Notes under the pieces: model-generated | What the model was told of the DNA's origin: nothing | The model's database searches: none | What the model saw: only the letters and a program-made list of their open reading frames with translations | NCBI RefSeq assembly: GCF_964204865.1 | Contig: NC_135258.1 | Span: forward strand, 15,553,001-15,617,000 | Direction of reading: 5' to 3' | From: Styela clava | Lineage: Eukaryota > Chordata > Ascidiacea > Stolidobranchia > Styelidae | Length of the DNA: 64,000 nucleotides | Made by a program: the position numbers and the translations under genes | Part shown: piece by piece, positions 1,781-61,230 of the stretch | Layout: each line of letters starts with the position of its first letter | Numbering within the stretch: position 1 is the stretch's first letter

Positions 1781-1789
1781 TTGTACCAC

Positions 1790-3890: not shown

Positions 3891-3894
3891 GGGG

Positions 3895-6800: not shown

Positions 6801-7105
6801 CGTATTGACGTAATTTTTTGATGATCAAATCAGGTGAGGGTCAGGAATATTACGTGCAAAAATTGTTACGCTAAGTTAACTAGAATTTATTGAGGTACGA
6901 AACTACACCCATACCGGACACACAGGCGTATTTATCACGATTGCATTATGGTCGCTTTTATTAGGCAAGCACTATTTCGTTATTGTGAAGTCGCATTGAC
7001 GTAATTTTTGGAACATGAAGTCAGGTGAGGGTCAGGACTATTATATGCAATAATTGTTACGCTAAGATAAGTATAAGTTATTGAGGTAAGAAACTACATC
7101 CATTG
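3895..7105 (-). repeat. Dimeric satellite array, reverse block
   Basis: This is the same satellite as at 1-1780 but on the opposite strand: plus-strand text reads tgacgtaatttttggatgac and gaagtcaggtgagggtcagg. The dimer period is again 364 bp (caataatt recurs at 5783, 6147 and 6511). Monomers near 4090-4350 are the most diverged, and a relic of the second repeat family lies at about 3895-3945. The block is nearly twice as long as the forward one. Confidence 0.93.
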
Positions 7106-7800
7106 CGCTAAGGCAAATTAATATGTCGGTTTCTGCTTATCTAAAGCCGTGCATAGAGTGAAAGCGTTCCACGTCCTATTAATAAAATGTGGCACAATAC
7201 ATGATCAGTCTCTGGATATTAAATAACAAGTATTTATGTATGCGGTACCCAACCTCAATCATTGCGTGAATTAAATGTTCTTTCTGTTTGTCTAAAGCCT
7301 TGCGTAGAGCGGTATCGTATACCCCCCTATTGATAGATCGTAGCACAATACATGAGCTTTTGCTGGAGCTGGACAAAAAATAACAAGTCTTTATGTGTGT
7401 GGTACCCAACTTCAACCATAGCGTAAAATAACATGTGTTTTCTGCTTGTCTAAAGCCTTGGTTAGAGCTGTATCGTATAACGCTCTATTTCTGGACAGAA
7501 ATTGGTCAGAATGGGATATCGTGAACGTTCCTTGGCGACAATTTAGTCGCTTGTGATGCTTGTTTATTTGAGCTCTGCACAACGACCCCGATAAGAGAGA
7601 GGTCGGTGACGTATTGAGTTTGTTGACATACTCGTAGACGCCATTACGGGTGACCGTCGCTAAACTTTGGCAAGTTGTATTTCGTTATTGTGACGTAGCA
7701 GTGACGTAATTTTTGGATGACGTCATCAGGGGGGGGTCAGGAATCATATATCCAAAAATTGTTACGCCACGCCCACTAGAAGTTATTCAGGTAAGAAAGT
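7106..7800 (-). repeat. Edge repeats and terminal satellite monomer
   Basis: Three copies of the second repeat family lie at about 7110-7490 on the minus strand (plus strand: ttctg.ttgtctaaagccttg). A lone diverged satellite monomer follows at about 7620-7800. The block is AT-rich and non-coding. Together with 1790-2435 it shows that both repeat families belong to the same composite locus. Confidence 0.75.
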
Positions 7801-8497
7801 ACATGAGACCCCAAAACTGCTGTTTTGACGAATATATTCTCTACGTAACATAGTTTATTGTGAGACACGTGTAAAATAAATTATACTATGACTTCATAAG
7901 TATATAATTCACAATTACTCGTTTAATGAGCCTATAATTTAATGATAATTAGTCAAATGGCAACAAAACTCAGAAAAATGGTTGCAACCCTTAATTTTGT
8001 CCCGCGAGCGACAAAAGGTTGTCGAATGCCGACCCCTGCCATATGACATCGTGTACCTGACGTCATTTACGAGTGTTCACACGAATTAAATAAAAACATT
8101 AAAACGATATTTTGACTTGGTTTAGAAGACAATGAAAAACAAGCATGGATTCGGGTAAATGAATGCATTCGACGATTAGTATTATGGTACTTTCAGATTA
8201 GAAACCAGCACTAACCAAACATGACTCTATGGACAAAATGCTAAATATCAAAACAACTCCGTTCAAGTACCTACAGCGAGTTTCAATCTTATAATGCTGC
8301 TGACATATTATTAGAAATGAAATTACGTAATAAATTCTGATTAGCAATATCAGTTTGAAAAATTTGACAAAATATAATCTAAGACCTGAATAGCGCTTTG
8401 TATCATAATCCTAGACAAATCAAAGTTAAAGAACAAAAAGCGCCTCCTTCTGTAAAAGTTTCATGCGAAGCCATAAATGGAAAATTATGGACGAAGC
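7801..8497. other. Non-coding stretch with a transposon-end-like motif
   Basis: No gene is seen. Around 8000-8040 the text cgcgagcgacaaaaggttgt is followed by gccgacccctg. Read on the minus strand this starts CAGGGGTCGGCA, like the termini of hAT-type elements. No partner terminus was found. Confidence 0.35.
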
Positions 8498-11400
8498 CAT
8501 TTTGGCGTGATTTTAAAAAAGTAAACGGTGTAAACTATGAGGAAAAAGGCAGTTTCATTACTATTTACCTTATAATACTTTGGGCATCAGACCATATCGG
8601 CCGGAGGACGTTCGATCGAAGCAGATACCTGATGTAGGTCAGATATAATTATGCATTATATATCAGAATTTGCAGATTTTGCATTTGTGGGGTGGGATGC
8701 GAAACCGTTAATCGAAACCGGATAATCAACGAAACCGTTCTTGTTTATTTGTTTTGAACGTTAGATGACCTCAGCAAATGGGTTACGTGCACGGCAGCTG
8801 ACGACTAGCGTAATTATTGGCGTTATGCATTTTGTATGCTGACGTTTAGCAATCAAAAGACGCCGTTTCGAGTTTAGAGAGTAATCTGCATATTTTTCAG
8901 ATCTTGACTGAACGTCTCAGTATCGCAGTCAATAACGCATTGAAAACGTACATCGAAGCTATTCAGCCCACGCCATTTTGAATAATGAAAGTATGTTGTC
9001 GGTGAGGATAAAAGACGACAGAAACCTTGTTTGAGTTTTCAATTTAAATGCGGTCTAGCAAAATAAGGTATGATCGATTCATCAAATTTTTTGTATATAT
9101 GATATAGTGGTTTGCGGGAAGTCAAACACGTTAACAAATTGTTTTGGTTAACTCGTTCTACGTATGATTCATGCACCCACCCCGTAGCTGTTTTGCTACA
9201 TTTGACCAGTGTTGCTATGGCAATAAATTGGAGGTCACGCGCGATTTATAGCTAAAAATTCTCGGAATAAGTTAGACATTTTCTGGGCGAGATGGACAAA
9301 CAGCAAAATAATCCTGATGGTGTATCATAAGATCTCATCAACGCCCAGATGTCTCAGGATTAGGGCTCTCACAATTCAATTTAAACAGAACATTTTTCAG
9401 GTATATTAAATAGTATGTACGTCAGAAAAACATCATTTTTTTATTATATCGATGACTTATCAATGCTAATGCTTTTGAGTTGAATATGAAATGTGTCGCA
9501 AGTGAAATCTTGTTCTTTCACAATATGTCGCTCTATCACGCGACACGTTTTAAGCGATGAAAAAGCGCAAGGTGTCGCTATTAGAAGGATTTTACTTTGC
9601 CTGTCCTTCATATTCCAGGGATATGACCTGGATTACCCCAACCTACTAATTCGTAGATAGTCCAAAACCTAGATTGCTTGAAAAAATAATGCGGAAGGAC
9701 AACGGAAAGAATAACATAATTATAATATAAATTTATAATTATAATATCAAAATCACTCTGAATTTGAACGGTGCAAGGTATAATGTAGGCCTACAGGCTG
9801 TGAATGAATCAATCGTATGAATCTCATATTAACGATATGGACGGCAGTTTTTATTTGAATCATTATAAATTATTCAATACATATGCGTTTCATTAGAACT
9901 TTTCATTTTGGCGTGATTTCAAAAAAGTAAACGGTGTAAACTATGAGGAAAAAGGCAGTTTCATTACTATTTACTTTATAATACTTTGGGCATCAGACCA
10001 TATCGGCCGAAGGACATTCGATCGAAGCAGATACCTGATGTAGGTCAGATATAATTATGCATTATATATCAGAATTTGCAGATTTTGCATTTGTGGGGTG
10101 GGATGCAGGGGTTTCGCTCAAATTAGTTTTTGGAATACTATTGATAATCAACGAAACCGTTCTTGTTTATTTGTTTTAAACGTTAGATGACCTCAGCAAA
10201 TGGGTTACGTGCACGGCAGCTGACGACTAGCGTAATTATTGGCGTTATGCATTTTGTATGTTGACGTTTAGCAATCAAAAGACGCCGTTTCGAGTTTAGA
10301 GAGTAATCTGCATATTTTTCAGATCTTGACTGAACGTCTCAGTATCGCAGTCAATAACGCATTGAAAACGTACATCGAAGCTATTCAGCCCACGCCATTT
10401 TGAATAATGAAAGTATGTTGTCGGTGAGGATAATAGACGACAGAAACCTTGTTTGAGTTTTCAATTTAAATGCGGTCTAGCAAAATAAGGTATGATCGAT
10501 TCATCAAATTTTTTGTATATATGATATAGTGGTTTGCGGGAAGTCAAACACGTTAACAAATTGTTTTGGTTAACTCGTTCTACGTATGATTTATGCACCC
10601 ACCCCGTAGCTGTTTTGCTACATTTGACCATTGTTGCTATGGCAATAAATTGGAGGTTACGCGCGATTTATAGCTAAAAATTCTCGGAATAAGTTAGACA
10701 TATTCTGGGCGAGATGGACAAATAGCAAAATAAGCCTGATGGTGTATCGTAAGATCTCATCAACGCCCAGATGTCTCAGGATTAGGGCTCTCACAATTCA
10801 ATTTAAACAGAACATTTTTCAGGTATATTAAATAGTATGTACGTCAGAAAAACATCATTTTTTTATTATATCGATAACTTATCAATGCTAATGCTTTTGA
10901 GTTGAATATGAAATGTGTCGCAAGTGAAATCTTGTTCTTTCACAATATGTCGCTCTATCACGCGACACGTTTTAAGCGATGAAAAAGCGCAAGGTGTCGC
11001 TATTAAAAGGATTTTACTTTGCCTGTCCTTCATATTCCAGGGATATGACCTGGATTATCCCAACCTACTAATTCGTAGATAGTCCAAAACCTAGATTGCT
11101 TAGAAAAATAATGCGGAAGGACAACGGAAAGAATAACATAATTATAATATAAATTTATAATTATAATATCAAAATCACTCTGAATTTGAACGGTGCAAGG
11201 TATAATGTGGGCCTACATGCTGTGAATGAATCAATCGTATGAATCTCGTATTAACGATATGGACGGCAGTTTTTATTTGAATCATTTTAAATTATTCAAT
11301 ACATATGCGTTTCAACAGAACTTTTCATTTTGGCGTGATTTCAAAAAAGTAAACGGTGTAAACTATGAGGAAAAAGGCAGTTTCATTACTATTTACTTTA

Positions 11401-12750: not shown

Positions 12751-12774
12751 CAGTAGCAAATAAATATTATATTA

Positions 12775-13536
12775 ATGGCTCCCGGAAGACTTACTGGAAA
12801 GGCAGCAATTGTTACCGGTGGTGGAAGCGGAATAGGTAGAGCAGTTTGTGAAGTATTTGCAAGAGAAGGGGCTAGCGTTGCCGTTCTTGATATCAACGGC
12901 CAACATGCGTCCGAGACCGTTAAACTGCTGTTAACAAACCACCAAAACACACATTGTTTTATCGAAACAGATGTGTCATCGGTTGAAAATGTTAGAGAGG
13001 CATTTTTGAAGTCACAGAAGGAATTGTCAAAAACATGCACTATTCTTATAAATTGTGCTGGAATATTACGTGGCGATTCATTCGTCAACATGAAAGATGA
13101 TGACTTTGATGATGTCATTCGGGTTAATCTGAGAGGATCATTTCTTACGTCGAGGGAATTTTTAAAATCACTGGAAAATGTGAAAGATTCAAATGGGAGC
13201 ATTGTCAATATTTCTAGCCTCGTCGGGAAAATGTCGTATTTTGGGCAAGGTAGTTATTGTGCTTCCAAACACGGTGTTCTAGGTATAACAAAAACGATCG
13301 CTGCTGAATATCCATTACATAAAATCCGGTGTAATGCTGTGCTTCCTGGGGCAATAGATACCCCGATGATTAGCTCAATCAACCCTGAATTATTGGAACA
13401 AGTGAGAAAAACAATACCTATGGGTCGAATAGGCAAACCTGAGGAAATTGCAAATGCATGTTTATTCCTGGCATCGGATGAGAGTTCATACGTTAACGGA
13501 GCTTGCCTAGAAGTAACTGGTGGAGCAGGTGTTTAA
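12775..13536 (+). CDS. HSD17B8: HSD17B8-like short-chain dehydrogenase/reductase
   Basis: A complete 253-residue classical SDR in one exon. Visible motifs are the NAD(P)-binding TGGGSGIG (residues 14-21), an Asp at the end of the third beta region, NCAG (93-96), catalytic Asn118, Ser148, and Tyr161 and Lys165 in SYCASKHG. The PG...TPM substrate-loop motif and a C-terminal EVTGG also fit. Length and motif spacing match the FabG/HSD17B8 branch. In vertebrates HSD17B8 is a mitochondrial 3-hydroxyacyl dehydrogenase that acts with CBR4 in mitochondrial fatty-acid synthesis and oxidises estradiol in vitro; the same role here is inference. The start is the first ATG after the repeat junction. The lack of introns beside multi-exon neighbours could mean a retrocopy, though no poly-A tract is evident. 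A related SDR such as CBR4 or DHRS is the alternative. Confidence 0.85.
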   Translation: MAPGRLTGKAAIVTGGGSGIGRAVCEVFAREGASVAVLDINGQHASETVKLLLTNHQNTHCFIETDVSSVENVREAFLKSQKELSKTCTILINCAGILRGDSFVNMKDDDFDDVIRVNLRGSFLTSREFLKSLENVKDSNGSIVNISSLVGKMSYFGQGSYCASKHGVLGITKTIAAEYPLHKIRCNAVLPGAIDTPMISSINPELLEQVRKTIPMGRIGKPEEIANACLFLASDESSYVNGACLEVTGGAGV

Positions 13537-15097: not shown

Positions 15098-18000
15098 TCA
15101 TCCTTTGCTATGTTTTTTCACATTGCCTGCCTCTTGTTTTTCTTTGTTACTTAACAAATCTTTTTCAAATTCACTCAAAATTACTGGATGCATCCATGGC
15201 TTTGCAGGTTTTGGCCCTTGTTCCCTGTGAAGGCAAATGCATTTGGTGTAAATGTATGAGAGACCCTGAGTTTGATAATAAAATTCCTAAAAAATTGTAT
15301 TATTGCCAAATATCGATAATGTGCTACACCGTGGTCAGCGTATTAAAAGTAACAAATAAGCAAACACATTACCTGCATCTATAAATTGTCCCAACTATAA
15401 TGACGATCACCATCAAAATTCCACATATGACACAGAGAATTATTAGCAGCAGAGATCCAGTCTCTTCTGAAAATAAAAACAATTACTATACAAAAGTACA
15501 ATTAATAGATAAAGGTCTCGCAAAATAAAATAACAAGAGAGCATAGCTCAACTATATGGGCTTGAAGATCTAATAACTAACTGCAGAATCGGTGGCCTAT
15601 GCGACTCAAATGGACATGTGGCTGGCTGAGCAGAGAACAGTCATGTGGCGCGATCACTAAAGCCAGGAATAAAAACAGCGTTCCTATTAATTAGAATAAA
15701 ACGGCGAAATAAGAGTTTGAGAGAAACTCGGATTAATTTTGGAAAACAGTAATACCCTTCTAGCGACTGAAAATTTGAAATTGAATAGTTTTGGACTTGG
15801 AGACAAGCGATTGCTGGATAACAACAACTATCGACCAACAACAGCAACTTTCTTTCAAAACAATTCATATGACCCATTCGTGCCCAATAAAATTTGCTAG
15901 AATGACTAGCCCACGGATTGCATTTTAATTGAATAATTAAAATCGAATATGAAGAAGAATTATTTTCCAACGTTCTAGCTTTCCCATAACTTCGTAAGGT
16001 GAGTCTATATATATAAATATACCAAGTTTGAATCTCTGTTTGTATGCGACTGTACCCAAAAGTTTCAGTAATCTAGGACGCTATGCACAAAATTCATGTT
16101 CTCTCGAGAATATGTTGTACACAAAGTAGTATAATACAAATCACATGATAAACTCACCAAACACTCCAATTTCCTTCGCATCTGACCAATCAGAACACAT
16201 TAGTCCGGTTTCATTCTCTGAAAAAGGTGAATAATATATCATTTTAATTGAATTTTGCATTTCATCAAATGTTGCAGTTAGCCCAGTAAAAAATATCTTA
16301 CTTGTACACGCTCGCACATGAATAATTCCTGCGTATCCAGTTTTGATTAGGACTGAGGTATTTGTACCATTGTAACTGCATGAAATATCGTTATCTTTTG
16401 CAATACAGTTATCATTAATATGTTGAAGTTCATCGAATGTGAGTCTGGAAAAGATTTCAATTTCCATTTTCTTAACGTTATAGGCTACATATCCATCATA
16501 TATGGCAGTTTTAAGATCGAAGAATTTTTAGGGACAGACGATTATTACAACAGTATTATTTTTTTACGTATCAATGGCCGGCCGCCTGTACAGAGCTTTG
16601 CACGGATTGGAGATGTGAAAAGAAGAAGAATCATGTCAAAAAATAGTTTTTCTGTATTGCTCTATTAAAAATGTTTACAAAACTACCTGGTTTTGATTAA
16701 AACTTTATAAACTTCAATTTCCCCATTTGGCTTTCTTGGTGGTTTCCATGAAACGTTTATATCTTCACTTGATGTCCTTGTCACAGATCGTATTTCCGGG
16801 GAATCATCAGGTGCTAAAACAATTCCACCACTCAATTGTTTGTTTAAAATACTCTCCATACATACGCCCTTACGAGTGTGTCGCAATTTATAGTTTAAAA
16901 TATATAGCTAGAACTGGTGAAAATCCAGCTAACATTGGCAATTTCTGCCACAATTTAGTTTTCATATAAAACATATAGATCTTACAAAGATTTATTGCTT
17001 CAGAATTGAGCTTTCGTAAAGCATGCAAAATATTTTAAAAACAACTACGTTATTATTTTTGTAAACTATTAGTTTTTTTGCCAAAGATTATATCATTTAA
17101 TGAATTTTCACAACTTTTGAGTCCGCTTGGGGACTTTATATTTATATGATTTTTCGTGCCAAAGCCAGCTTTGAAAAGTAACCCAATTTCTGGGGAAACA
17201 TGGAACTGATGAAGATGGAATGTGGATCCATAACATCATGCCATGGCATAAATTATGGATCGGGTATTCGCTGTTCTGATGTTTGAAAGCAACACTATTT
17301 CTTACCATCTTGAAGCGTTTTCACATATATTTCTTTTTGCATTCCAATGCCTGCCTCATTTGTCATTGCCACCTTTATAGCATATCTAGTGTTAGGAGTC
17401 AAATCAGTCAGGGATATTATTCTGCTTCTTGTGTTGAATTTTCTAACTAAAAGTAAAAAGATAGAAATCATCGTGACATACGAGACACTCAAGTCTACCA
17501 CATTGGCATAGTGGATACGGTAGCCTAACATACTTGGTTTTACCATGCATATAGTTTTACCTATTCCGTAGTCGTTAATTCGAGCCAACCTTTTCTATAT
17601 ATATAGTCTTTTTTTGCGCCTTGTATTCGAGTGTATAAACCGTCTATTTTTACTGACCGGAGATATCGAAATCTACTAATTGCAGTTGGTGTCACTCAAA
17701 CCAATACCACCGTATGGTGTGAATCATATTTTCAATTTTTCTCTACCAGTTCAAATTTTGTAATGAGTACGAGAAATCGTGTGACAGCAGGTTTACCTGT
17801 ATTTTCCCTTGGTACTTACTTTTATGCTTTTTGCTGTGGTTCAAATATTCAAGCTTCTGGTATTCGATTGTATAATATTGTATTCTTCCACAAGAAAGCT
17901 TGTCTTTAATTCCTTCATATGTCACTTGCATGGTAATACTTCTTGATGTAATTTTCTTGAACTGATATAACGGTGGTGATTTAGGAACTGTGATATGTTA

Positions 18001-21000
18001 AACAAATTGATTGTACAAAAAATACACCCGCAATGTGTAATGGCATTGGGAGCTTCGTATACGTGAAACGTAGTCCTATTAGATTCAGCCAAGGAGAGCT
18101 CATTGGCCTCATGTTGTTTACCCTATTTGGCAGATTATAAAACATGGAGACATGAAAATATCATTCTAGTGTTATATTTCATTTTGGATTTGCTACCTAA
18201 ATATACTTTGTTGGGTATTAGTTCCATCTGTCGTCATAAATCATACAAAATATTTCGAACAAATATTTACTAAGAAAACCGCATACTTTATGCAAACCTG
18301 GTCGCCATTACGCAAACAATTAACGTCAGAAGCAGATATGTTTTATAGCAGTGTAGCCAATTAAACGGGCCTATTGTTACGTTTCACATTTTGCTCATAT
18401 TTATAATTTTACACTTGTTTTATATCTTGCTATGCCCTTTACTCAAAACTAAAATTCTAGAAAATGAAAGTCAATGCTTTCAAGAATCATGCCTAGTCTT
18501 AAAATTGAGTGTTCTTTGAAAAACGCAATTCCGAAGAATTTTACTCCATATTATGAAAGCAAATCATATCACTTTAATTATGAATACTACTATTATATTA
18601 GTATTTACCTGACCCACTTGTGAAAGAACTGACAAAACAACAGCTTTGTTCAACACTATAAATTGTAGAACATACTGTGATCTTGTACAAAATACATTCC
18701 TGAACATAAATAAGCAAATGATAATATTTTGAATTTTGAGAAGTTCTGAATCCTGAAGGTGACATTGAAGATTTTCCTAACTTTTTTATTGGACACGAAA
18801 TGTAACCTATGGATCGTTATGCTTTATTGTTGTTGTTGTTCTTGCTGGTGTTATTTTGGTCATAAAGTCATTTTTTGAATTATCAGTTCTTAAAGATGGA
18901 AAATTCGCTAAAAATCTAGCTGATATTGCAATGCCCATATGTTTAAGCATGCTCTCTCGTTGAGCTGTTATGTGCGTATGTCCTGTTCTGTTAAGCACTG
19001 ATATTAATTTTGCCATAAAATCAGAATTACAAGAATATCACAAACGATAGAAAATAAATAAGGTTGCCAACGTCACCAATAACATTCACCAAGACGACTA
19101 GCAAACAAATGAAAGATAAGGTCATGGGAACGTCAATAACACTTTCATTCTCCAGAAATTGTGTAAATATATAAAAACTTTTTCATTGATATCAACAATA
19201 AAATGTATTGTTGGCCAATTGAAGTAGTATGGTCGAAATGAAGTCTCAAATAATTCTATGATTGAATGATTGGAATCTCTGTTTCTACAAGCAAACTGGT
19301 TTTCTCGTAGTAATAAAGTTCATCCCTTTTTTGATGGTCCAAATATATTGACATAATTTTCCATTTTACAATTTTGGCAAATTCTTCGTTGACGATTTGT
19401 TTCAAATTTTGAAACGACTAATGTTATTGTTTTCATTTAACTATACATATAACTGTACATATAAGTCAAATATAGTAGAACCCCGATACCAGTAGAATTT
19501 TAGTTGATCATTAAGTTTTCTGCAAAGTTCTCCGAAAAGGGGTTTTCCAATATGTTCCAATTTTGGGGTAAAATTTCGAGTTTTATAAACTCGTGGGCAA
19601 TTGAAAACACAACTAGTATGTTGACGATTTCTTCAATATATTTGCGCCAGAAATAAATTGGTGCATAAATTGCGGACAACAGCCATTTTTCCAACAACAT
19701 CCACAAACCCCCCAATAACAATAATTACCAAAATGATCCATACTTACACATCGTGCTCCTCAATAATTATTCCTATACTTTTGTGTATAATCACATTTAA
19801 ACTCGATTTAATTATAATGTCAACGACCGATACCCACTTGATGCGTCGTATCATATTTTATGACTTGAATCACATCAGAAAAATGCGTCATCGCAGTTTA
19901 AGTAAATAAAAACACGTGAATCTCTTTGTTATTTCTAAACGATAAAACGATAAATTTGATCCTACCAATAAATGGCGCAAAGATTACTACGATTTTCAAT
20001 TTATGTGTTTGGCTCAGTATTTACAAAATACTTACATGCGATTGTTTAGAGATTGTTGCGTAATATTTTTCTCTGTTTCTATATTAAAGGGGATTTGTGT
20101 TCAAGCGTCTCGTCAATACTTCCTCTTTAGGTCGCCAACGATATTTGCGTGTGGAATTTTTTAGATTGCGCTCAAATCGAAAAATAAAAACTATCACCAA
20201 AAAGGAACATAAATCTGTTTAAGATTCCGTTTTAAATAATAAAGACTATTTCAAATTTCCTTTAAATAAAAGTTTTCAAATTTGAACTTCTTGTGGCTTG
20301 GGAATGGCCCACTTCTTCCTCAATAATGAAGCCGCTGACAACACCGTATATAGTGGAATATTCACTATACGTGATAGAAGCCCATTAGTTCAAATTTGAG
20401 TATCTCTGGGCCCTCGGACTTCTTTCTAATCCACGGAGCGATTTTAGATGACTATGAGCAAAGTATTTCTCTAGTGAACATTCGGGAGAACTGCATTAAT
20501 TCAAAATAATTTACCTGTGAGTTCTTTATATCTTTGACTACATTGCATTTATTATTTGGCGCAATGTGGCGCAAAAAATAATTGATGGAAACTTGTTGAA
20601 AGCAAATAGTGCTTTTATTGAAAAGCATCTGGACACGGAGTGTTAAAAGTCTTTGAAAGTATTCATGAAAGTTTGAGATGAGAAACACCAGTTTAAACGT
20701 TAGATCAAAATAATATTCGAATCAATATATGTTTTCTACCTTGAGTCTTGTCAGGTTCAATTTCCTCGTACTTGGCTCTAAATTCTGTATTCTGTCAATG
20801 ACGTTATCATGGTGCTGTAGTTTGACGTCATAATTATACAAGTCGTCTACGTCATCAACATCCCATTGAACTTCGATCCATGATTTCCCTTCTGTAGACG
20901 AAGAGCAACGTGGCTGAGCTAGAATAATAAAACAAAATATGATAACAACTAGTTGTAATAAAGTAATTTTGCGTTTACACGAGGGGCGCGTCATGAATGG

Positions 21001-24000
21001 AGATATATAATTATGTGTTCTAAAAAATATTTCTCTTTTTTATTAGCGGGTTTCACCCCTTTACTCGGAATAAGGGAATTTTTGAACTGGGGTCGTATTG
21101 GCTATCACTACGGCCATTGGGGTTAAATAAACGCCCTATAAAAATTATGGCTCACGAAAAAAACATACAAGAAAGATACATTGAATATGGTTTGATATTT
21201 CTATATGTACCAAAGAAGATATTTTTCTTTTTTTGTGTGGGTTTTCCAAGCCTATACTCCGAATAAAAGAATTTTTGAAATGGGATGGAGGTGTCTCGGC
21301 TCTCAAAGTTGTGGCTAGTTATTGTATAGCTTTATAATCGTCCTGCTTATTGGCGATTAAAAATGCATTATAAAAATTGGAATTCACAAAAAACACTTAC
21401 AAAAAAGATACATTGAATAGAATTTTATTTAGGATTTTTTAATAGAAGAACTTGTTTTGAATGAAGAGTGTTATTAAATTTCCAGATTCAGATTCAGATA
21501 TTTTATTTCGTCATGCAAGAATCAATATGAAGCAAAAGAAAACACAGTAAATTGAAAAAACGAAAAACATTGATTCATTGCAATTGACGCGGGGTCGCGA
21601 ATAGACTCAATGAGTCATCTAGTCAGCGACACCTTGGTGCTGTATTAAAGCAGCAAATATAGCAATGAAGCATATAGAACAACAAAAAAACGAAAATTTA
21701 TCTTCAGAAATACACAAATCATTGAAATACAACAATAGATTCGAAATAAAATACACAAATCATGGAAAGACAACAGTGGATTCGACAACAAAAAAGGAAA
21801 AATTATCTTCAAAAATACAAAAATCATGGAAAGACAACAATAGATCCGAAATAAAATGCACAAATCATGGAAAGACAATAGATTCGAAATAAATTTAATT
21901 GTAAATAACCACACTACAAGAACCGCCAGTACGATTCATTCAGAAGAAGGCTCATTAGCGACATCTGGTGTTTAAGATGCGCATCGATGAATTCAAAACA
22001 TAAAATAATGCTGAGTCATACGACCCAGCACTAAAAAGGACTGAAGTAGCGTCCCAAGCAACTGGGTTGCCATTTGATAGCTATTATATGTGGAAAGTAG
22101 ACGACGACGAGTTTCCGTCACAGTAAGGTGAAGTACCGGAATGCACTATATAAATTGCACATGAGAAGTTGGCAAAAAATGACATAGTAAAACATGAAAC
22201 AGCCAGCAAAAGAGGTACAGCATTCAGCTGTCATAAAAAAAAATAATGGATACAGCTGTTCAGTAGAGGAACATGGATGGATTCCACTCCTATATTTAAT
22301 AAAAGAAACGTTAACGTGATAATAAAAAATATATATAATATCAGATTGCGATCATTACAATGAAAATATTTATGTTATTCCTACGATATTGGGTGTATTA
22401 GCTCTTATTTACAATCACGCATCTGTAAGTCAAGCTCTTTGTGAACGACTGATCGGAGAAAATCAAAACAACAGCATACAAACTATAACCTTGAAATGAT
22501 TATCAGAATCGACTGGCGTTGGAAAGGATTCCTTGTGTGCAATGCTTGGCTGATAAGAAACCAAATTTAAACAACATAAAATAAAGCAAATATATGTTTT
22601 TCTGAGTGATAACATGATAAGCCAAATACCAGGCCAAAAAGACCACGATCATGTGCCCACTGAAGGCGAGGGGTCAAAATTGGCTGATTGTGAATTTCCG
22701 GTAGGCATGGGCAATGTACATGTATTTTATAATTGTATAGGATTTAATTGTGTTTTTAGAAGAAAAAATTGAAAATTTTCACTATGTACCATATGGCGCC
22801 AGGCCGAGTGGCTTCATCATGCCCAGCGCCTTTGGTGCCTGGAAATATTGCGTATGTCAATATTATTGGAGTGAAATCGTCTCCAATAGAATAAATAATG
22901 GGATTTCATGGTAATTGATTTTGTTATCGAATTACTTTATTATGCGGAAACGCATGAAGACGGAGAATTCACATCCTGGATCTGATACGTTGAACTTGAG
23001 AATGGTACCACCCGGGTTTGATGACCAACTGGAATTGGATCAAGTAGCCAATTGGTGAAGGGATTTTGAAGGGGGGTATGAGTCCGGATATACTCCCACC
23101 CGGATATAATATATGTAATATAATGTCTGGGTTTAAATTGCACACAGCCATTAGAACGCATATATATATATAGGCGTTTTCCGGGTTCTAAAAATATGAA
23201 CAAAAACAGTAGAAATTTTTGATTAGACCATTGAGAACAAATATTTTATCTACCAATTCATTTAAAAAAAAAAATTCTCGCTATTCTTAGCTATTCGTAT
23301 AGGCTAAGTAATTCCGAGACCATGTATTTATATCACCGTGTTTGATAAGGTAAAAAAAAAACTATTGGCATTGAAAAATGTCCCAACAAAAATAATTGGC
23401 GCTTCAAAAGTGTAAGCGCCTTCGCCTTCTCCACATCAAGTTGTATAAATGGACTGAAACCTATGGGCAGTCCCCGAACTCGTAATATAACGAAAATAAG
23501 GAAAATCGAAATAAAATTATAGCCTAACCCTAACCTGGTACATATACTACGAGAGTACCAAATAATTTATTGACTGTATAACACTAGGCATCTTACGAAT
23601 ATACAATTTAAATTAATATTTGCATTCTCGCAATATGATAGGTTCAAAATATAACAATGAAATATTGTTTTATATATAATGGTCGTTCATTTTTACAGCA
23701 ATAACTCTCTTTGGCATGTGTAGTTAAGAGCAATGAGATAAGATATAGCTTTTCCGGTATTTGTAATGCTCTCCATTGGATATTCGACAAATAAAAGTTT
23801 GTGTGTAAGCTTCAGTCCTCATACTGTTAAAAGTTTCAGTATATTTAAAAAGAAACCCTACGTTTTTGTAGTTTAGATCCTATAATAGGAGTGTTCGAAA
23901 GATCTGCAGGTATGTAACCAGGTGAGCCGTAATACGCATATCTTACTCATTCAACGTATAACGCGCGTGTATAAAATTTGATAACTGTGAAATACCAGTA

Positions 24001-27000
24001 ATTTTTGTACAGCAACAATAAGTCCAATAAATATTAAAAATAATTATATTTTCGAGTGGTCATTTGTGAGACACATATGTCAGCAACGTGACTAAATAAA
24101 CTTTATGTATGAATTAAAGCTCCGAGTTGGTCTTAAGGATTTTTCTTAATTTGTTATTTCCACACCTGCGCGGTGTAAAGCGACAATTAATATAAAGGTT
24201 GAAAGGTCAAAGTGTCACTTTATACCGTTAGCAACGATGTATTTGGCCAAATATTAAATTTGATAAATAGAATAAAAATGATTAAAAAGGTAACAAATGA
24301 ATTCAAAATATTTCGCGCTGAAGATAAATAGGTTCGAGTTATTGAAATTGTGAAACCCAAATCGATTGCACACTAAAATGAATGCGAACAAATCTCATAG
24401 AATATCGCAAGTTAAGTATATTACGAGTAGGTTGCTTGGGTATCTCGAATAAATTTTAGTCTTCTGTGACTCGTTTTCAATAGAACCGTAATAAGTTTGT
24501 TGTCGCGACAGGGTGGTATGAAAGGACGAAGGGTTTTACCGATAGTTATTTTGCAAATCTTGTTAACAAAATATAGATTATATGTTTATGAACTTGCCAC
24601 TAAAAACGTGTGTGGGTCGAGCTATCACACGTCCCTTTTTTTGATAAATTGGCCTTAATTAGGGATACTCTGTTATTGCCTCACGCTCCCATCACTCATT
24701 TCTTTTCTATTTTCTTCGATTATGCTTATCTTAGGATAAGTTCAAATAAGCTAGGGCAGGCAGTTTCCCCTTACTTGTTCCAACTTATTCTGAAATACAA
24801 GTAATCAAATGAAGGAGACCAGAGAACTAGTGTAGAAAAAATGGTCCTGATTGCTATAAATTTATGTTGTTTAATACTTTAGTTCATTTCATTAAGGTGG
24901 TAGGGGAGTGACCGGATAGTTTCTTTGGTTGTTACAAAGGCTGCAGTAATTCACTATGAACTATGGTATGTATATTTGTCCATATCTAAGCCATACTATA
25001 CTAGTAACAACTTTCGCCGCCAGCGTATGGTAACAAAACTAATTTCACCCGCGCGATGGGTGAGGTCATTGGGCTCCTCCCACATTTTTGTCCACATTCC
25101 ATTGGAAAATTTAGTATCTAGTAGAATTCAAACGTTGTGTACATTGCCCACCATAGATTATCATATGTATGACATCTTTACGATAAATTATAACGACGAA
25201 TGTAAACACTTGTTACATATGTATGTCAATACGTTTATTCTTTAATTTAAAATATTGTGAATAATATGGCAGCATGTATTTGGATCGAATTGTTAAATTG
25301 ACATCAATGATTTTTACTCATGTAGATAAATTGCAATAAAATTTATCGGATAAAAATTTTACCACCTGTGAAATTCTGCAATTTATAATGAAATCAGCAT
25401 ATTGCATTTGAAGTGGATTTTGAGTAGAATATGAATTGGAACATTTAGATATACATTTGGATTGAGAAAATTTTGAGAAAGTTTGACCAATGCAGTAGGT
25501 CACGCGCACTCATCTAGAAGTAAGGAAGACTCATCCCTCAGCAAAGTTACGGGCGACCCTAAACTGGTGCATTACGCGCCAGAATATGATAATTGACACA
25601 AGACTCGAAAAAATGAAATGTATATCTACAGTTTCATGATATTTAAATTGAGAAATGTCACTAAATTGTTTTTACATTATTTCCCTTTGCATGATTTGCA
25701 GTCGCAAATTGGGTCGTAAACCAAAATCCGCTTTGCGAATAGATCGTTGGTCAGCAAGACATCTTTATTGTAAATTACATATATATACCATACCCGGAAT
25801 TATTCGGCGACGATAACAGTAACAAGAATATTGTAAAAAAATATGCGGCCATCTGCCGCCATCTGTTACAATTGACATTTGCAAGTTAAACAAATAAGAA
25901 TGCAGGAGGGGATCTGACCTGGCGGTTTACATTTTTCCTTTTCGAAGTGAAATCTTGCCGCCTGTGACACTCCACCGCTGTTGTGAGCCGTTATTTCTAT
26001 ATAATATTTCTTCGTTGGTTGAAGGGACTGAATGTGCACATTGTGATGTGAATTTCCTCGTTTCGGAATGATTGTTTTATTCGTGATAAATTTTTCTTTG
26101 TGTTCATCAAACATTTTCATTTCAAAGTAGTCAATGATGCCCATTTTCTAGAAGAAGAACGGAGTTCCATATATTTATAATCGCGGATTCGTTTGTGATT
26201 TGGAAATATGTAAATTAATACAAAACAGAATTGCACTAGAATCATAATAAAAAGACTACGAAATTTCTCTCAAGGGTTTTTAGGAAATTTTGTTATACCT
26301 GATGAGCTATTTCCAAAACAACATTGACTTGACTGACCTGAGTTATTTGTTAAGCAATATTCCATGGCTTTTTGTTGAATAATAAATATGTTGTAGTGTT
26401 TCTTGATTAACAATGGTAGCATGCCAAGAAATTTAATTAACATACCGTTAAGCAAGACAAAAGTCATAAAACGTCAATAAAGGGTTTTCGCTCAAAATAA
26501 TATGATCTCCTCATATTTATAAAATAAATTATGGATTAGGAATTCAAGAATAGCTGTTAGGTACATCATTCTCGACCCTAACCAGAATTCCATCTTACAA
26601 TGAGCTATATGGTTAAATTAGCAAAACGATAATTTATTTGACAATAAGTGCGGTGACATTTCACAACGATATTTTAAGGAACAAGTAAAATGTTTCAAAG
26701 GAAAATTCACTCTACTGACCTTCCATGATATGGAGACATTCATACTATTCCCATCTCTATGATATTTGGAACAGCTGAACCGAAGACTTTTCTTGTCTAA
26801 AGCTTTGCGTGGTTCTGTGAAAAATAATCAGATAAACCCGATGTCAGATTTTGCTTTCTTCAAACTAATACATAAATCCTAATAACGTTGAATAAAAATG
26901 TAAAATTGATTGTACTCACTTGTCACGTGATGAACGCTTACAGGAGAACTGAAGACCTTTTCTGAATGTGTAGTTGCACGTACGGTGATGTTGTATTCTG

Positions 27001-30000
27001 TTGCCTCTCTTCCCAATATTTCCGGTTTCTTTTCTAGAACAGAAATTGTCTTCGTTCCGTTTCTTATCTGCAATATCGTTAAGGATATTTTCATTTCCAA
27101 ATAGATAAGTAACCTACATGCATTCAAGAATGTATCACGGGGGTATTATATGTCTTATTCGTACAGAATTCTTTCTCTATTTCTTTAACTCTGACTTGGG
27201 CACTGAAAGAAGATAGAGATTTCTAGTTGTGCTAATGATATGATCCGTATTTATATTTCTAATTCTTCGTCCGTATAGCATAAAATTCAAGATATTTCAA
27301 AAAGACGAAGAACTTTTGAAAATCAAGCTAACAATACTCGATACAACTCGAGCAAATTCATCAGTACAAAGGAATAGAAACTGCTGATTGCAATTACAAA
27401 TTTGCAAATTTACTCATTAGCATGATAAGTATTTTTGTAATATAAACAGCCACGACAAAAGATCCGAATATTAATAATTTCGCATTGGAGATGTGCCAAT
27501 ATCACTTTTTTGTCGATACCGATTACTACCCAATACCAGCGAGAAAGTGCCGCCCGATACCGATACGCAGATTTCATATTGCCGATATTGCGATACCGAT
27601 ATTTTAATAATATGCAATTAACATCAATGTATAATACCAATGTTCAATATGTGACAATAAAAATATTTTCAGTTGCCAATATCCGTATACCAACATATAC
27701 AACATATTCCAGATCTTATTAATTAATTAAGCTCAAAATATCGGTCTATTTTTATAGCCTATAGCGTTAAAATTACCATTATTGCGAATGCGGCTCATAT
27801 TGTCATTACGAATACATCAGTAAAATTCTATTCAGGATACCAATAGCATGATAAACGGTCAAAATTAGGAGATGTGGTCGCTTTTGAATCGAAGTCTGGA
27901 TCTGATGCTAAATCATGACCTCTGAGATTGATTCATCGGATTAATTGTTAACCAGTCTGCAATTGCTTGCGACACCCAACCAATCATAGCAAGCATCGAC
28001 ACGTTTTATGCATTTACACTTGTAAAAATCTGTTCCTATGCTGTAAATAGAATCTGAACCTTTCTGACCTTCCGATTTATAACCACAATTGTTTGGAAAA
28101 CAGTAATTCCATACCTTTAGCAAATACGTTAAAGATGAGTTTTTATTAACACAGGGCCATGGATGATAGATAGCCTTGAATAGCGGATTTGCCGCCAATA
28201 CCACGTATAAACCAAACTTGAAAGTTGACAAAATGATATCAGGTTTATGATTGCTCGTTTAACGTGTATGTATATCAAAGAGCAGATTGTCTTGAAATAA
28301 AGTGTCAGATTGGCTCTTTAAATTCATCCGCATACGATACCATGCCGAGCTATTTTCCTTCTTCGTTTTTATAAATGGAATTAGGTACATTGCAGCACAT
28401 GGTTTTTATTTATTAAATGAAAGTGCCATAGCCCATAATTATCTTCGATGCCGCATAACATTTATTAGAATTTTAAAAAATCCAATGCTACATTCAATAT
28501 TCCGGCTTAATCTAACTCAGTGATCTTTGTTTATTAAGTTTGCAAAAAGTGTGCTATCCTATTCATTCAATAATATTTTCAACCAGGAGTTCTTATTCAT
28601 CACATTCGACCTGATTTGAATAGTAAGCGGTTCCGGAACAATCAGGAATTTTAGCAAAAAGCAATCGCACGCGGTATTTGCGACTTTTTCAGTTTTCAAA
28701 AAATTTGAAAGAAGGGGGATGATTGACTGCACACGCTTATATACACCGATTTTGAGTACAGATTTCGGCCTCCTGTCGATTGTAGTTAAATACTGCATGT
28801 TTTTTCAATGAATTTGTCGATTTGTTATTTTTTGTTCAATTGTAGAATGTTTGTCGCATTACGAAACCAAATATTTGAATATGGCTCAAATCGCTTGGCG
28901 TGCCATGAGAAATCCTCTCGCGTGCCACAATTGGCACGCGTGCCAGGGGTTGCCGACTCCTGTCCTATGTCATAGTTCAACTACAGCCAAATACAGCTAT
29001 AATTACCATTGTTTTTTATGTCAAAAAAGTTTTGGTGCTCGAACAAATCGGTATTCGAACACCAATCCAGAACGAAATATGTTCGACTACCGGAGTATCA
29101 CTGTATATGCCTACTTTTTCTATATTTCCGACATGCTATTTAATTAAAATAAAAAGACCTTTTCGTAACCTATTTACTTGAATTTCAAATAAATTATTCA
29201 AGTAAACTTCTTGGTTTTTCTAAAAACTTCCAATAAACAAGACTATCACTGAGTAATAAAAAAAAAATTTATTTGAAAAGAATAAAAAAAGGTTCAAACT
29301 TGCCCCATTAGTCCAAGTATATTGGAATTCATATTTCAGCCGATATGTCGCACAAGATGGTTTTTCAATTTCGATATTCAACTTGGAAGAATTGCTCCAA
29401 CTGATCCCAGTTATTTTGATTGGGTCTGGCTTTGCTGTATGGGAAAAGTAGGATATATTGCTTAATGATACCCGTGCAGATTTCAATTACCTCATTCACT
29501 AAAAAGTTTGGTTAAAATCAAGAGGACCTATTAAATGAATAAATGTCAAATTAGACCCGACATTTCGAAAAAAAATATACCTAAATTTATGAAACAATAT
29601 CAATGAAATTTGTCCAATATCTTATTACAAATCATATACCCACCATAATTACATATTTGAAAGGAAAATATGTTTTCACAATTGTGTACTTTGCCATCAT
29701 TTAATCTTAGCCATGCGCTTATAGAATCTGTATGAGATGTGGAGTCGTCAGAGCAATCCACCATATGGAATGTTAAAACACAGGAGCCAGTTTTTTCGTC
29801 GCACTTTGAAACCGATGGTTTGCTGCATGACGTAAATGATTTCGTATTATTTTGATAAGTTCATATAGAAAAGTGAATTTACAATGTGAAGGTACTACAA
29901 CTTTAATATATATATATATATCATATTGAATGCACGTTCTTAGGATTTTTAAAATAAAATATGGTAGAAATTGTGGTAATGAAGGCATCACGAGATATAT

Positions 30001-31614
30001 AGGCACCCACATGAATCAATGAATCCAGTAAGTAATGTTACGGGTCCAATCAACAATTTCCCATTACTTGACGAGTATTTTTGAATGCAGACGTACCGGA
30101 ACGAAATACGTTTTGTATGTTTTTAAAAATGTGGTATAGATACCAAGGCGATAGCTCATTCAGTGCAATTTTTTGAAATGTATACCCATTCCAATCTAAA
30201 GTCTGTTATAAAATATTTCGAAAAAATATAAAATATTTTTTTCAGAAGTGTGGTAATTCCATAAGAATACCAAAATTTATTCGTTCAATGACAAGAGAGC
30301 AATGGCCCTAGAGCAGCGAGTTTGCACCGAGACAAGTATGACGGTGGGAGTCAAGCGTAGCAAAATATGAAAGTGTTCCCCATTGATTGAACATTAAAAT
30401 TTTGGATGAAATTCGGGTCCCATAACACATAAGTTAAAAGAAGAAATTCAAAAAATAATGATTAACGTATATTTTCAAGTACTAAAAATGTGGAATCGAT
30501 TGGTCCATTAGTAGCGGAAGAAGGCGATTTTTACTTAAACCACAACAACAACAACAACAACAACAACAACGAGAATTTACTAAAACGATCCATATGTGCA
30601 CTTTATATCCAATAGTATTAGTAGACTTACCATTGTTTTCTGTCTTGACGACTCAAAACCAAGGTATAGTTGTACTTATGCAGCATCGCTGGTGATTCAA
30701 AAGTCCAAGAACATTTCACAAAGGCGGTTACAGATGGCTTGTAACCACAATTTCCCAATGCACACGAAGTCCAGCATTTTAGATCGTTTGTGCAGGATGG
30801 CTTTCCGAATCCATCTGAAAATTTACCATTATAAAATGAAATATCATTTATATAATATATATATATAGTTATTAGAAAAATAGATTGAAGGTTCTCCAGA
30901 GAATAGATTTATATTTACATAACTATGACTGGTCAGCAAGCAGCGAGAAGTCAAACATGACGTAACAATTGGAATTTGATAAGCCCTTATGTCAGACAAG
31001 TTTTCACTCGCCTAGATTTCAAGGTACGTCAACAATTCTTTTTATAGTTTTAGATTTCATGATGAATTTTTCAGATATGTTCCTAGCATTCGGTAAGATT
31101 AAATACCTCAGATTATACATTTTTAGGTGTTTACTTCGAATACACTGACTGAAAGGTTTCGGAAAACCTGGAACTAGCCTGAAATCAGGGATTAGAAATT
31201 TTCAATTACAGCCCAATCTTCACAACCAAAATATGTAAGGTTGAAATATGTGAATATGTGAGGGCAAAGTTTTAGAGACATTATTGTTTTTGTGGGTATT
31301 TTTTCATCAGTATTTCGAATAAGTCACTAACTCTGATTATATATTGTTTGTTCAGAAAAATAATATCCGAAAATACCCGAAATAAAAAATAAAATATCCG
31401 AAAGGCCTACTGCAGTAAGAAACCTACTCCGTCATAGTGACACCTCATCATTTTTACCACTGCTGATATTTCCAAAAGTGAGTTCTGACGATCTTACAGA
31501 TAAGTATTTGAGTGAACAAACAATCTCAAGACAATATGTTTACTTACCTGACAGTGACGTCATGCACGCGATGAATAATACGGGGGAAATTGTCCTTATA
31601 GTAGCACAAGTCAT
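15098..31614 (-). CDS. Class I cytokine receptor, gp130-like ectodomain with short tail
   Basis: An 18-exon model with consistent phase, 771 residues. Exons: 31614-31548, 30814-30631, 29822-29644, 29434-29304, 27067-26920, 26814-26720, 26337-26299, 26147-25919, 20918-20740, 20628-20515, 18699-18609, 17987-17820, 17446-17306, 16813-16687, 16444-16302, 16217-16158, 15466-15373, 15224-15098. Residues 1-22 form a signal peptide. D1 (23-143) is Cys-rich, with the class I C-x-W motif (Cys57-Ser-Trp59). D2 (144-236) opens with KPDPIKITGI, and FN3-like D3-D6 follow (237-698). Each domain is bounded by phase-1 introns. D6 ends in MCSDWSDA, a WSxWS box whose first Trp is Cys (686-690). A helix at 703-726 leads to a 45-residue tail with a Box1-like proline/Trp motif (PKPAKPWMHP) and no tyrosine beyond Tyr727. 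Ligand binding at the cell surface is family knowledge. With no STAT-docking tyrosine in the tail, I infer a signalling-limited, decoy or partner-dependent chain, or a short isoform. Confidence 0.85.
21484..21530 (-). mobile_element. Possible non-LTR retrotransposon 3' tail
   Basis: The run cagattcagattcagatatt followed by ttatttcgtc is, on the minus strand, an AAATA(TCTGAATCTGAATCTG)-like tail of the sort ending CR1/L2-type LINEs. No reverse transcriptase remnant is visible next to it. Confidence 0.3.
21665..21895 (+). repeat. Irregular 41-bp minisatellite
   Basis: Four diverged copies carry the core acaaatcatggaaagacaac followed by agattcgaaataaaat. They are spaced about 41 bp apart, with one longer interval. 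The open frames across it on both strands follow from the A-rich repeat. Confidence 0.7.
23461..23560 (+). mobile_element. MITE fragment, family 1
   Basis: It shares cagtccccgaactcgtaata, ctaaccctaacctggtaca and a gagagtacc end with the copy at 46270-46439. It lacks the left arm and most of the right arm. Confidence 0.65.
27490..27615 (-). mobile_element. Fragment of a CGATACC-rich element
   Basis: Repeated cgataccgat/gccgatattgcgatacc strings match the interior and ends of the complete element at 50891-52157. The sequence agatgtgccaatatcac near 27487 corresponds to its terminus agatgtaccgataccac. No target duplication was recovered here. It lies within the intron between receptor exons 4 and 5. 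Confidence 0.55.
28868..28970. mobile_element. DNA-transposon end with palindrome
   Basis: The segment has the palindrome tggcacgcgtgcca and then ggggttgccgactcctg. On the minus strand the latter starts CAGGAGTCGGCAACCCC, a hAT-terminus-like string. It is intronic and only one end is recognisable. Confidence 0.4.
30541..30570 (+). repeat. (CAA)n microsatellite
   Basis: A perfect run of about ten CAA/AAC units just outside receptor exon 2, in the intron. Confidence 0.95.
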
Positions 31615-32398: not shown

Positions 32399-34438
32399 CA
32401 GTAGCGTAGCCAGCCCCAATTTTTTTTTTTTTGGGGGGGGGGCAAATTTGAAAATTTTAGAAATTATATTGGGTTTAAGAACCCCTTCTTCAAGCGCGAA
32501 ACAACAACAGTTTATCAATAAGCAAACTGATTCAAAAACTCAGCTGGCTTTTTGTGGATACAAAAACCATTTTAATAAACAACTTTTTAGTTGAAACAAC
32601 AAATATTAACAACGCAATTTGAATAAGTAAAATACATCGCCCCGATTAAAAGTCCATCCTTCGCTTCCCGCCAACTATGCTCGACACAACTCGGATAATT
32701 TTCTCCTCGGTGACAGTGAAGCACAGACAAATCAGAAAGGCGATTGGACGTCATTGATGAGCGCAGCCATGTCTATACCCGCTTCATTCATGAGAAAGAC
32801 CGCTCAGCCTCACAGGTGGCTGCTAGTAGCGTCATAACGATCTGAATTGCCGTGTGCACGCTTGGATAATTTCGAGCGCTCAGAAGAAGCCCCTCCAAAC
32901 ATTCGTCTTTAACGTCGGAACTTAAAGAAGTTCTCCACAGTCTCACTTCATTCTGGAGGTTATCCAATAAATACAGACGCTCTACCTCATCCACGTGATT
33001 TGGTTTGTTCGGTGGAAGAATTGATAGCAATGAAAAAAATGAAGGGTTATCAATAAACGTATACCGAATAGAGCAGCTCAAGCCGTCGACGTATGGGAGA
33101 TATACGGAACGTTTAAAATACTGGGATGCTGAATCAGCACAGACATTATCGCGATAAACTTGTACTTCGACAACTCTGGGTATTGTCAACTCTTTCAAGC
33201 CAGCTATTTCACAAGCTTCTTTGTAAATATTCAATGCAATTTCCGAGTCATTGCGTTCCTCAGCGATAACGCTCTGAAGAGAGGATGTGAGGTTCTTTAC
33301 TGACGGCACACTGACTCCGACCGCCTGAAGTGCGCGCTAGTGGCTCCATCAGTGCCGAATATCGACCAATCAAACATACGGCGTAGATAACGGAAGATTT
33401 TTCCCAGAGCAGATTTCAGAGAGAAAGCTTTCGCCCGCGTCTCACTGTTAGCATCTCTCGCCAAAGAATCAAGAGCCTCAAGTACTCGTTTGAAGTTGCA
33501 TTTGAAGATTCGGATGCTCTTGTACTTCTCAGACCATCTGGTGGGGCAGAACAAAGGGATGTTAATTCCTGAACACGCGCGCCTTTTAGGGCTCTCCCTG
33601 AAAAAACGAATAGTCTCCCGAATGATATCACAGGTGCTTCTGATGATTGCAATTTTACCTTGGTCATTTATGACCAAATTCAAACAATGAGAAGCGTAGT
33701 GCACAAATATTGCGCGCGGGTATTTATCACAAATGCGTTTTTGCACACCGCTGACGTGACCTACCATTGTCGTTGCACCATCATAGCCTTGCCCCACAAA
33801 ATTTTGCAAATTCACTCCTATACCAGAGAGGTGGGTCAAAATATTTGAGGAAATTGACTCGGCAGAAACGGAATCCATTTCCACTAATCATGTGAAGCGC
33901 TCGCACACTCTACCACCTTTAACGTACCTCAAAACGATGCTTAGTTGTTCTTTCCCAGAAATATCACATTATTCGTCGGCTATTACGGACACAAACGATT
34001 TATTAGCCTCCATAACGATATCTTGCACTATCATGTTGCTTGCTACCTTGAGAATTTCATTCTGTATCATCGGGCTTCCTTTCTGTATACTTGGCGTTTC
34101 CGACCATTCGAGCGAAACGCCTTTTCAAATCTTCATCCCCTGCGTCGATATGAAATAGAAGAAGGTTCACAAAATTCCCACTATTCCCGGAATGTCCACG
34201 CAAGGGTATGTTAGCCGAAGCACAGAACATGACAGTTTGACAAATTTTTCGCAGCTATAGTTGATTCTCGGTGGGGTACAGTATTTTCCATAAGAGCCAA
34301 CGGTCAAGTCTTTGTGACGTAACAATGACAATCAGCAAGCGTGACGAGACAAGATTGCCACAAAACTGGTGGATTAATTAAGAATGGATTCTCGAAAAAA
34401 AAAATTTTTTTTGGGGGGGGGGGGGGGGGGGGGGGGTG
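32399..34438 (-). mobile_element. Decayed autonomous hAT transposon with 8-bp target duplication
   Basis: The element is flanked by a perfect 8-bp duplication, atcgattt, at 32391-32398 and 34439-34446; 8 bp is the hAT hallmark. Its left end cagtagcgtagccagcccc is a typical hAT terminus. It encloses a degenerate hAT transposase on the minus strand. The left end continues into T13-G10, and the right end has A/T runs and a run of 24 G. The T-then-G runs are in the same orientation at both ends, and the expected inverted copy of the gcgtagcc end is missing on the right. Confidence 0.85.
32640..34270 (-). pseudogene. hAT transposase pseudogene (ZMYM/DUF4371 type)
   Basis: Recognisable in pieces. 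An N-terminal DUF4371-like part (GDEDLKRRF, LRYV...VCERF) occupies about 34220-33890 in two frames. A central RNase H-like part (33884-33297) has FVGQGYDGATTM, HCLNLV and CPTRW. The C-terminal dimerisation part (33309-32788 and beyond) has the hallmark CEAERSFS. Breaks include frame changes near 34100 and 33310, in-frame TAA and TGA before 33884, and a TGA directly after the ERSFS motif followed by a TAG, with hAT-like sequence (TWLRSSMTSNRLS) continuing past them. The family transposase cuts and pastes its own element; this copy cannot be functional. Confidence 0.85.
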
Positions 34439-61079: not shown

Positions 61080-61230
61080 TTTCTATATTTTTTGTCACCT
61101 CCTACTTCAAAATTTCAGATAAGATCTTCGATTTCTTTTCACCAATTCTTTCTTGCTTACCGCTCAATTTGCAATGAAAGTCTTACTTGATGGCAAACGA
61201 AGTAATGTCTTTTTCTTATCAGGTTAGGCA

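Follow-up and report, generated by a model that had tools for sequence, protein, structure and literature searches.

Gp130-type class I cytokine receptors have been described in a tunicate, Ciona, and the relevant passages of PMC1963337 report one gp130-like chain together with CLF-3. According to those passages, by whose description we compare it here, this chain (cigp130-like; BN000969) is arranged as immunoglobulin (Ig) domain, cytokine receptor homology domain (CHD), FBN, transmembrane (TM) segment and box 1, is the sole gp130-type chain of Ciona, and has a CHD splice structure resembling that of GP130. One JAK is reported for Ciona in the corresponding passage of PMC3296744, and a homodimeric receptor mode has been inferred for tunicates in passages of PMC1963337 and PMC9857879. 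Passages of PMC8226699, PMC5509957 and PMC5852440 that bear on the subject treat gp130 or CRLF3 generally and name no Styela receptor. Given the Ciona reports, gp130-like receptors of sea squirts are already known in kind. Here we analysed a stretch of 64,000 nucleotides (hereafter the window) of the 376.6-Mb genome of Styela clava, C10:15553001-15617000, which contains a receptor-like gene unlike cigp130-like in its arrangement. An initial annotation of the DNA had placed it in a probable invertebrate chordate, in agreement with its source, a stolidobranch sea squirt (Tunicata, Styelidae). We conclude that the gene probably encodes a divergent chain with a short tail, of class I cytokine receptor descent, one that binds ligand without signalling of its own and is not gp130. 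What carries the case for this kinship is gene structure together with D1 and D2, the first two modules, taken as a pair; D1 is its weakest link.

Gene structure shared with two gp130-like genes

The window gene, on the minus strand, spans 31614 to 15098 and consists of 16 exons, which join in frame into 720 codons and a stop. Its splice sites are consensus throughout, with the exception of one GC donor (exon 4). The predicted chain corresponds to a Styela clava database protein of 720 residues, 'phosphatidylinositol phosphatase PTPRQ-like isoform X1' (P0001), from which it differs by 14 substitutions and no insertion or deletion. Because the lengths are equal and nothing is inserted or deleted, all 15 junctions agree with P0001, and the in-frame chain together with this match indicates a real gene and not a chance assembly. 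The initial annotation had counted 18 exons; there are 16, each splice choice being borne out by P0001. The layout it proposed follows from the in-frame chain: a hydrophobic, signal-peptide-like N-terminus, D1 with C-x-W, D2 opening with AKPDPIKI, four more modules (D3 to D6), a TM helix and a short tail. All seven module borders (signal/D1, five between modules, D6/TM) fall in phase 1, as had also been stated. A genome search with P0001 gave 32 matches, namely the 16 window exons in place and 16 weak matches (best E 8e-6, 34%).

Scanning the genome with the Pfam model IL6Ra-bind gave two sub-threshold matches, the better of which (19.6 bits) lies on contig C14 inside a gene that we call C14a. 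C14a extends from C14:7847783 to about 7858076, our spliced model reaching 7856997 and its database protein (NCBI LOC120347278, 'uncharacterized protein', 1087 residues; P0002) adding the last exon to 7858076. It comprises Ig-like exons, a CHD, four FN3-size modules, a TM segment, box 1 (IWPSVPRP) and a long tail, and its motifs include CCW and, in D2, SSEWS. Its CHD and D3 match human gp130 in the PDB with an E value of 6.7e-7; its Pfam matches to Ig, fn3 (D6 only) and IL6Ra-bind (14.8 bits versus 24.3) all remain below cut-off. The other IL6Ra-bind match (C14:13962899, E 9.1) was taken as chance, with no receptor-like exon in the surrounding frames of at least 40 residues.

A genome search with P0002 reached a second gene, C14b, at approximately C14:19787000-19802000, about 12 Mb from C14a. 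It has an Ig-like frame, a CHD with WSSWS, four FN3-size modules, a TM segment and box 1 (FWPTIPEP); its four CHD exons were spliced, and the remaining modules, TM segment and box 1 were read from open frames. Compared one module at a time, C14a and C14b are clearly paralogous, the collinear order having a diagonal sum of 50.3 and ranking first among 720 module orders, and a genome search with the C14b CHD returned C14b itself, the first CHD exon of C14a (E 0.106) and five weaker matches. The database pair P0002/P0003 includes an isoform X2 of C14a that is without the single-exon membrane-proximal module. Between the box 1 and tail exons of C14a lies an open stretch (C14:7855794-7855943) with a box 1-like PPVPK, absent from P0002 and P0003 and possibly a duplicated or alternative exon.

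The window gene resembles these two genes in several details of its structure. Over D1-D2 the intron phases are 1-2-1-0-1 in all three. The intron within D2 has a GC donor in the window gene and in C14b, and GT in C14a; in Ciona, the passage of PMC2760879 on such introns counts 556 GC-AG introns among 113,879, which makes them a rare class. In each of the three genes, the intron between D1 and D2 interrupts the codon that immediately precedes K-P, behind its first base, a G, and four FN3-size modules stand behind the CHD in each (in C14b as read from open frames). The window gene and C14a further have in common the phases of D3 (1-0-1) and a TM exon of phase 1 to 2. We noticed these coincidences in retrospect, and phase-1 intron borders are common for FN3 modules, so we treat the coincidences as strong hints and not as a calculated probability.

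Exons and motifs of the window protein

Exon 1 (31548..31614, phase 0 to 1; all exons are on the minus strand) carries the start codon and the signal-peptide-like stretch. D1 (residues 23-143), which contains eleven cysteines and the C-x-W motif as C57-S-W59, is encoded in its first half, with C-x-W, by exon 2 (30631..30814, phase 1 to 2) and in its second half by exon 3 (29644..29822, phase 2 to 1). D2 (residues 144-236) begins with the AKPDPIKI linker on exon 4 (29304..29434, phase 1 to 0), the exon with the GC donor, and its second half, on exon 5 (26920..27067, phase 0 to 1), has no WSxWS. First and second halves likewise occupy one exon each in D3, an FN3 module (exon 6, 26720..26814, phase 1 to 0; exon 7, 25919..26147, phase 0 to 1), in D4 (exon 8, 20740..20918, phase 1 to 0; exon 9, 18609..18699, phase 0 to 1) and in the FN3 module D5 (exon 10, 17820..17987, phase 1 to 1; exon 11, 17306..17446, phase 1 to 1). 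D6, also FN3, takes its first part from exon 12 (16687..16813, phase 1 to 2), its middle part from exon 13 (16302..16444, phase 2 to 1) and its end, C-S-D-W-S, from exon 14 (16158..16217), a separate exon of 60 nucleotides with symmetric phase (1 to 1). The TM helix, whose 19-residue hydropathy peaks at 3.68 at position 654, lies on exon 15 (15373..15466, phase 1 to 2) with Y676 at its inner edge. Exon 16 (15098..15224) adds the last 42 residues (the first codon being split) and the stop. The intron between exons 7 and 8 contains two direct repeats of 92 nucleotides (21685-21881), 90% alike and 105 apart.

Three sequence patterns were examined as marks of class I membership. The C-S-D-W-S at the end of D6 was discarded as a decisive mark, since 513 of 5000 whole-protein shuffles contain xSxWS. 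The CHD cysteine pattern C-X9-10-C-X-W-X26-32-C-X10-15-C, as given in a passage of PMC1963337, is absent in its strict form from the window gene, C14a and C14b and present in a relaxed form in all three, a fit that speaks for a CHD and is shared by 3.9% of D1 shuffles; the strict expression was dropped as a discriminator, since C14a and C14b fail it as well. The linker expression [VIA][KQ]PxP fits D2 of the window protein and neither C14 gene, and was set aside as a tie between them.

Comparison of D1-D2 with receptor domains and FN3 proteins

We compared D1-D2 with CHD profiles built from sequences of human receptor segments, six or eight of them, with or without C14a and C14b. In hmmsearch with filters off, the profile of eight human segments plus C14a and C14b found D1-D2 at 24.6 bits as one collinear hit, in which C-x-W is aligned on C-x-W and KPDP on KPDPP. 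Of 2000 sequences in which D1 was shuffled and D2 left as it was, 0 reached this score. The eight-human profile, again with filters off, gave D1-D2 24.3 bits versus at most 11.3 in the 987 of 1000 shuffles that were reported. In hhalign, the profile of six human segments plus C14a and C14b gave D1-D2 a probability of 69.5% (P 4.3e-5) and D5-D6 one of 15.7%, and the ten-sequence profile placed D1-D2 at 80.7% and the other four window pairs at 9.0 to 41.9%. As controls for the latter, three pairs from D3-D6 of C14a reached at most 1.0%, and six pairs joined from further FN3 domains of Styela stayed at or below 0.5%. Among single modules, D2 came top at 37.2%, and D1 stood at 0.9%. D1-D2 is the most CHD-like pair of the window protein in profile-profile comparison, and not in every test. 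Global alignment of the CHD gave z 2.9 with C14a and z 2.4 with C14b (6 of 500 shuffles), weak values with C-x-W misaligned, and in a MAFFT alignment the C-x-W of the window row was misplaced.

Other results, together with the post hoc character of the gene-structure coincidences, weigh against descent from class I receptors. Under HMMER default filters, the human CHD profile left D1-D2 unreported and reported the other four pairs, and on the ten-sequence profile D5-D6 scored above D1-D2 (30.2 against 24.6 bits), D5-D6 appearing as two separate hits. D1 alone matched a D1 profile weakly, at 7.4 bits, a score that 3 of 2000 shuffles reached, and at 7.6 bits, reached by 8 of 3000; D3 and D6 of the window protein outscored it there. 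On the D2 profile in hmmsearch, D3 (17.7 bits), D5 (17.2) and D6 (16.7) ranked above D2 (14.1). Four of 200 D1 shuffles reached the hhalign score, and D2 carries most of that score, because the alignment starts at residue 112. Pairwise comparison of D1 with its counterparts in the two C14 genes showed no similarity (z 0.9 and 0.2). Among 720 module orders, the collinear one ranked 10 for the window gene against C14a, 50 against C14b and 9 against both. Nor did searching the genome with P0001, P0002 or the C14b CHD link the window gene to the C14 genes. The Pfam cytokine-receptor families (IL6Ra-bind, EpoR_lig-bind and others) gave no match to D1, D2 or D1-D2 at E up to 10, the fn3 models none to D1 or D2 singly, and a PDB sequence search with D1-D2 no cytokine receptor at E up to 10, whereas the CHD and D3 of C14a match gp130 as given above. 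Motifs are missing as well: the box 1 pattern used, [WFLI]PxxPxP, does not occur in the window protein, D2 ends SEKVFSSPVSV with no WSxWS, and no N-terminal Ig domain is present, exon 1 joining D1 directly in our chain and in P0001 likewise. Database searches with the window protein returned P0001 as sole relative, which is no evidence of absence, because the same search with C14a gave just its two isoforms and nothing from another species.

These results could also be understood if the gene encoded an ordinary FN3-repeat surface protein of the adhesion or guidance type, with an ectodomain like that of a LAR-type phosphatase, DSCAM or DCC, a cysteine-rich N-terminal module, and a CHD-likeness arising from the FN3 fold and chance; we regard this as possible but doubtful. 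Against Pfam, the whole window protein exceeds the cut-off of three families: fn3, matched in four stretches (89 bits), DSCAM fn3 and Pur_ac_phosph_N, which represents an N-terminal domain of purple acid phosphatases that is not catalytic. The modules had been described as FN3-like: taken singly against Pfam fn3, D3, D5 and D6 match and D1, D2 and D4 do not. On the side of the receptor reading, D5 falls just short of Interfer-bind, the Pfam model for class II receptors (20.6 bits against a cut-off of 21). In the PDB, the whole protein finds FN3 chains of LAR-type and other RPTP proteins through D5-D6 (best E 9.7e-15), with no cytokine receptor among the 60 of 73 matches that were listed. The FN3 matches in Pfam and the PDB and the PTPRQ-like database name favour an FN3 surface protein, and so do the lack of a clear match for D1 or of pairwise similarity to the C14 D1 modules, the rank of D2 below D3, D5 and D6 on its own profile, the frequency of xSxWS in shuffled sequence and the phase-1 borders that FN3 modules generally have. 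Structure-database matches to FN3 proteins cannot, however, separate the two readings, because D3-D6 of C14a give such matches too, to DCC, integrin beta-4 and RPTP chains, if weakly (best E 0.007). The window protein resembles LAR-type receptor phosphatases and PTPRQ in the FN3 modules D5-D6, but differs from them in its CHD-like intron phases and in having no phosphatase domain: the ten Pfam families listed for it at E up to 10 include no catalytic domain of a phosphatase, for which reason the name 'PTPRQ-like' is unfitting. It has no kinase or long tail either. An FN3 surface protein, moreover, does not predict the CHD phase series, the split codon before K-P, the shared GC-AG intron or the gp130-like number of modules, and the joined FN3 pairs from elsewhere in Styela showed how little such domains score against the CHD profile.

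The window gene had been called a class I cytokine receptor. The CHD intron phases, the split K-P codon, the shared GC-AG intron and the D1-D2 profile scores support this part of the claim; Pfam and the PDB sequence search do not. The qualifier gp130-like does not hold as stated, and C14a and C14b fit it better: the window gene is unlike C14a in lacking Ig-like exons, CCW, SSEWS in D2, box 1, a long tail and the PDB match to gp130, and unlike C14b in lacking the Ig-like frame, WSSWS and a TM segment with box 1. Because WSxWS in D2, the Ig domain and box 1 are all missing, and the tail is very short, we classify it neither as gp130 nor as a complete class I receptor.

Proposed role and surroundings of the window gene

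That the gene is a true signalling gp130 orthologue, acting on JAK/STAT through its own tail as first proposed, is very improbable. The general layout of a CHD-like pair, an FN3 stalk and one TM helix would suit such an orthologue, but the last exon supplies 42 residues with neither box 1 nor a tyrosine, leaving Y676 at the membrane edge as the lone inner tyrosine, and the gp130 role is filled by C14a and C14b with their box 1 motifs; the tail largely refutes it. A decaying or fast-drifting relic whose D1 no longer folds, as the missing WSxWS of D2 and the barely recognizable D1 might suggest, is hardly credible, since two sequences with 14 differing residues both preserve all 15 junctions and the entire reading frame.

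We therefore return to a divergent short-tailed chain of class I descent. On this model, the window gene would encode a single-pass surface chain, either a descendant of the gp130/Domeless-type class I receptors of Styela or a relative of theirs by common ancestry; relative to its gp130-like kin, this chain has no N-terminal Ig domain, WSxWS in D2 or signalling tail. D1-D2 would most likely still form a cytokine-binding elbow, supposing that D1 adopts the CHD fold, and D3-D6 would act as a stalk. Class I receptors do not dock JAK or STAT in the usual way on a tail of this kind, and the window chain, its tail being very short, would be expected not to recruit them so either. Such a chain would therefore be a partner of both gp130-like chains, either ligand-binding (alpha-type) or decoy, and ligand bound to it may be handed to a gp130-like chain or trapped. 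The vertebrate IL-6R alpha and IL-13R alpha 2 likewise carry a ligand-binding ectodomain on a short tail; they keep WSxWS, and the window chain differs from them in its four FN3-size modules behind D1-D2 and its lack of an Ig domain.

Components for signalling are present elsewhere in the genome. STAT_alpha matches occur at two Styela loci (C3 and C6), and two adjacent JAK genes lie on the minus strand in C13:10388001-10398000, at offsets 1358-4696 and 6049-9384. Each is one intronless open frame (1112 and 1111 residues, 64% identical); both contain two kinase stretches and a FERM_F2 match that exceeds the cut-off, and copy 1 matches a JAK chain in the PDB with an E value of 2.3e-98. Retrocopying followed by tandem duplication would explain the pair, for which we claim no novelty. 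A second gp130-like gene and a divergent short-tailed chain were not found in the open-licence literature and are new so far as can be seen there. With two gp130-type genes, a divergent third chain, two JAK genes and STAT at two loci, the question whether receptor heteromers exist outside vertebrates becomes directly testable, and the cytokine signalling set of Styela may be richer than assumed. The assignment also corrects an automatic PTPRQ-like name that hides the window gene from surveys.

A more far-reaching reading, which we consider improbable, is that styelids independently evolved a multi-chain class I system composed of two gp130-type signalling chains, a duplicated JAK and a divergent, short-tailed chain that binds ligand or acts as a decoy. 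As part of this reading, the role of WSxWS in that chain would have moved from D2 to the membrane-proximal D6, on a small symmetric exon whose skipping would keep the frame. Were the multi-chain reading true, hetero-oligomeric cytokine receptors would have arisen outside vertebrates.

Several other features surround the window gene. Just upstream of it, on the minus strand, lie broken transposase-like frames (32788-33887) with a weak DUF659 match, which we take to be hAT-like. Possible exons of a Cache/VWA_N protein, presumably alpha-2-delta-like, occur on the plus strand at 43342-46739, with matches to dCache_1 (20.8 bits) and VWA_N (14.8 bits) that fall short of the cut-off. A short-chain dehydrogenase/reductase of 259 residues occupies a single open frame on the plus strand at 12757-13536. 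A FoxA-like forkhead gene at 59544-61082 on the minus strand forms one open stretch of 512 residues with HNF3-type N- and C-terminal matches, the HNF_C match falling just below cut-off.

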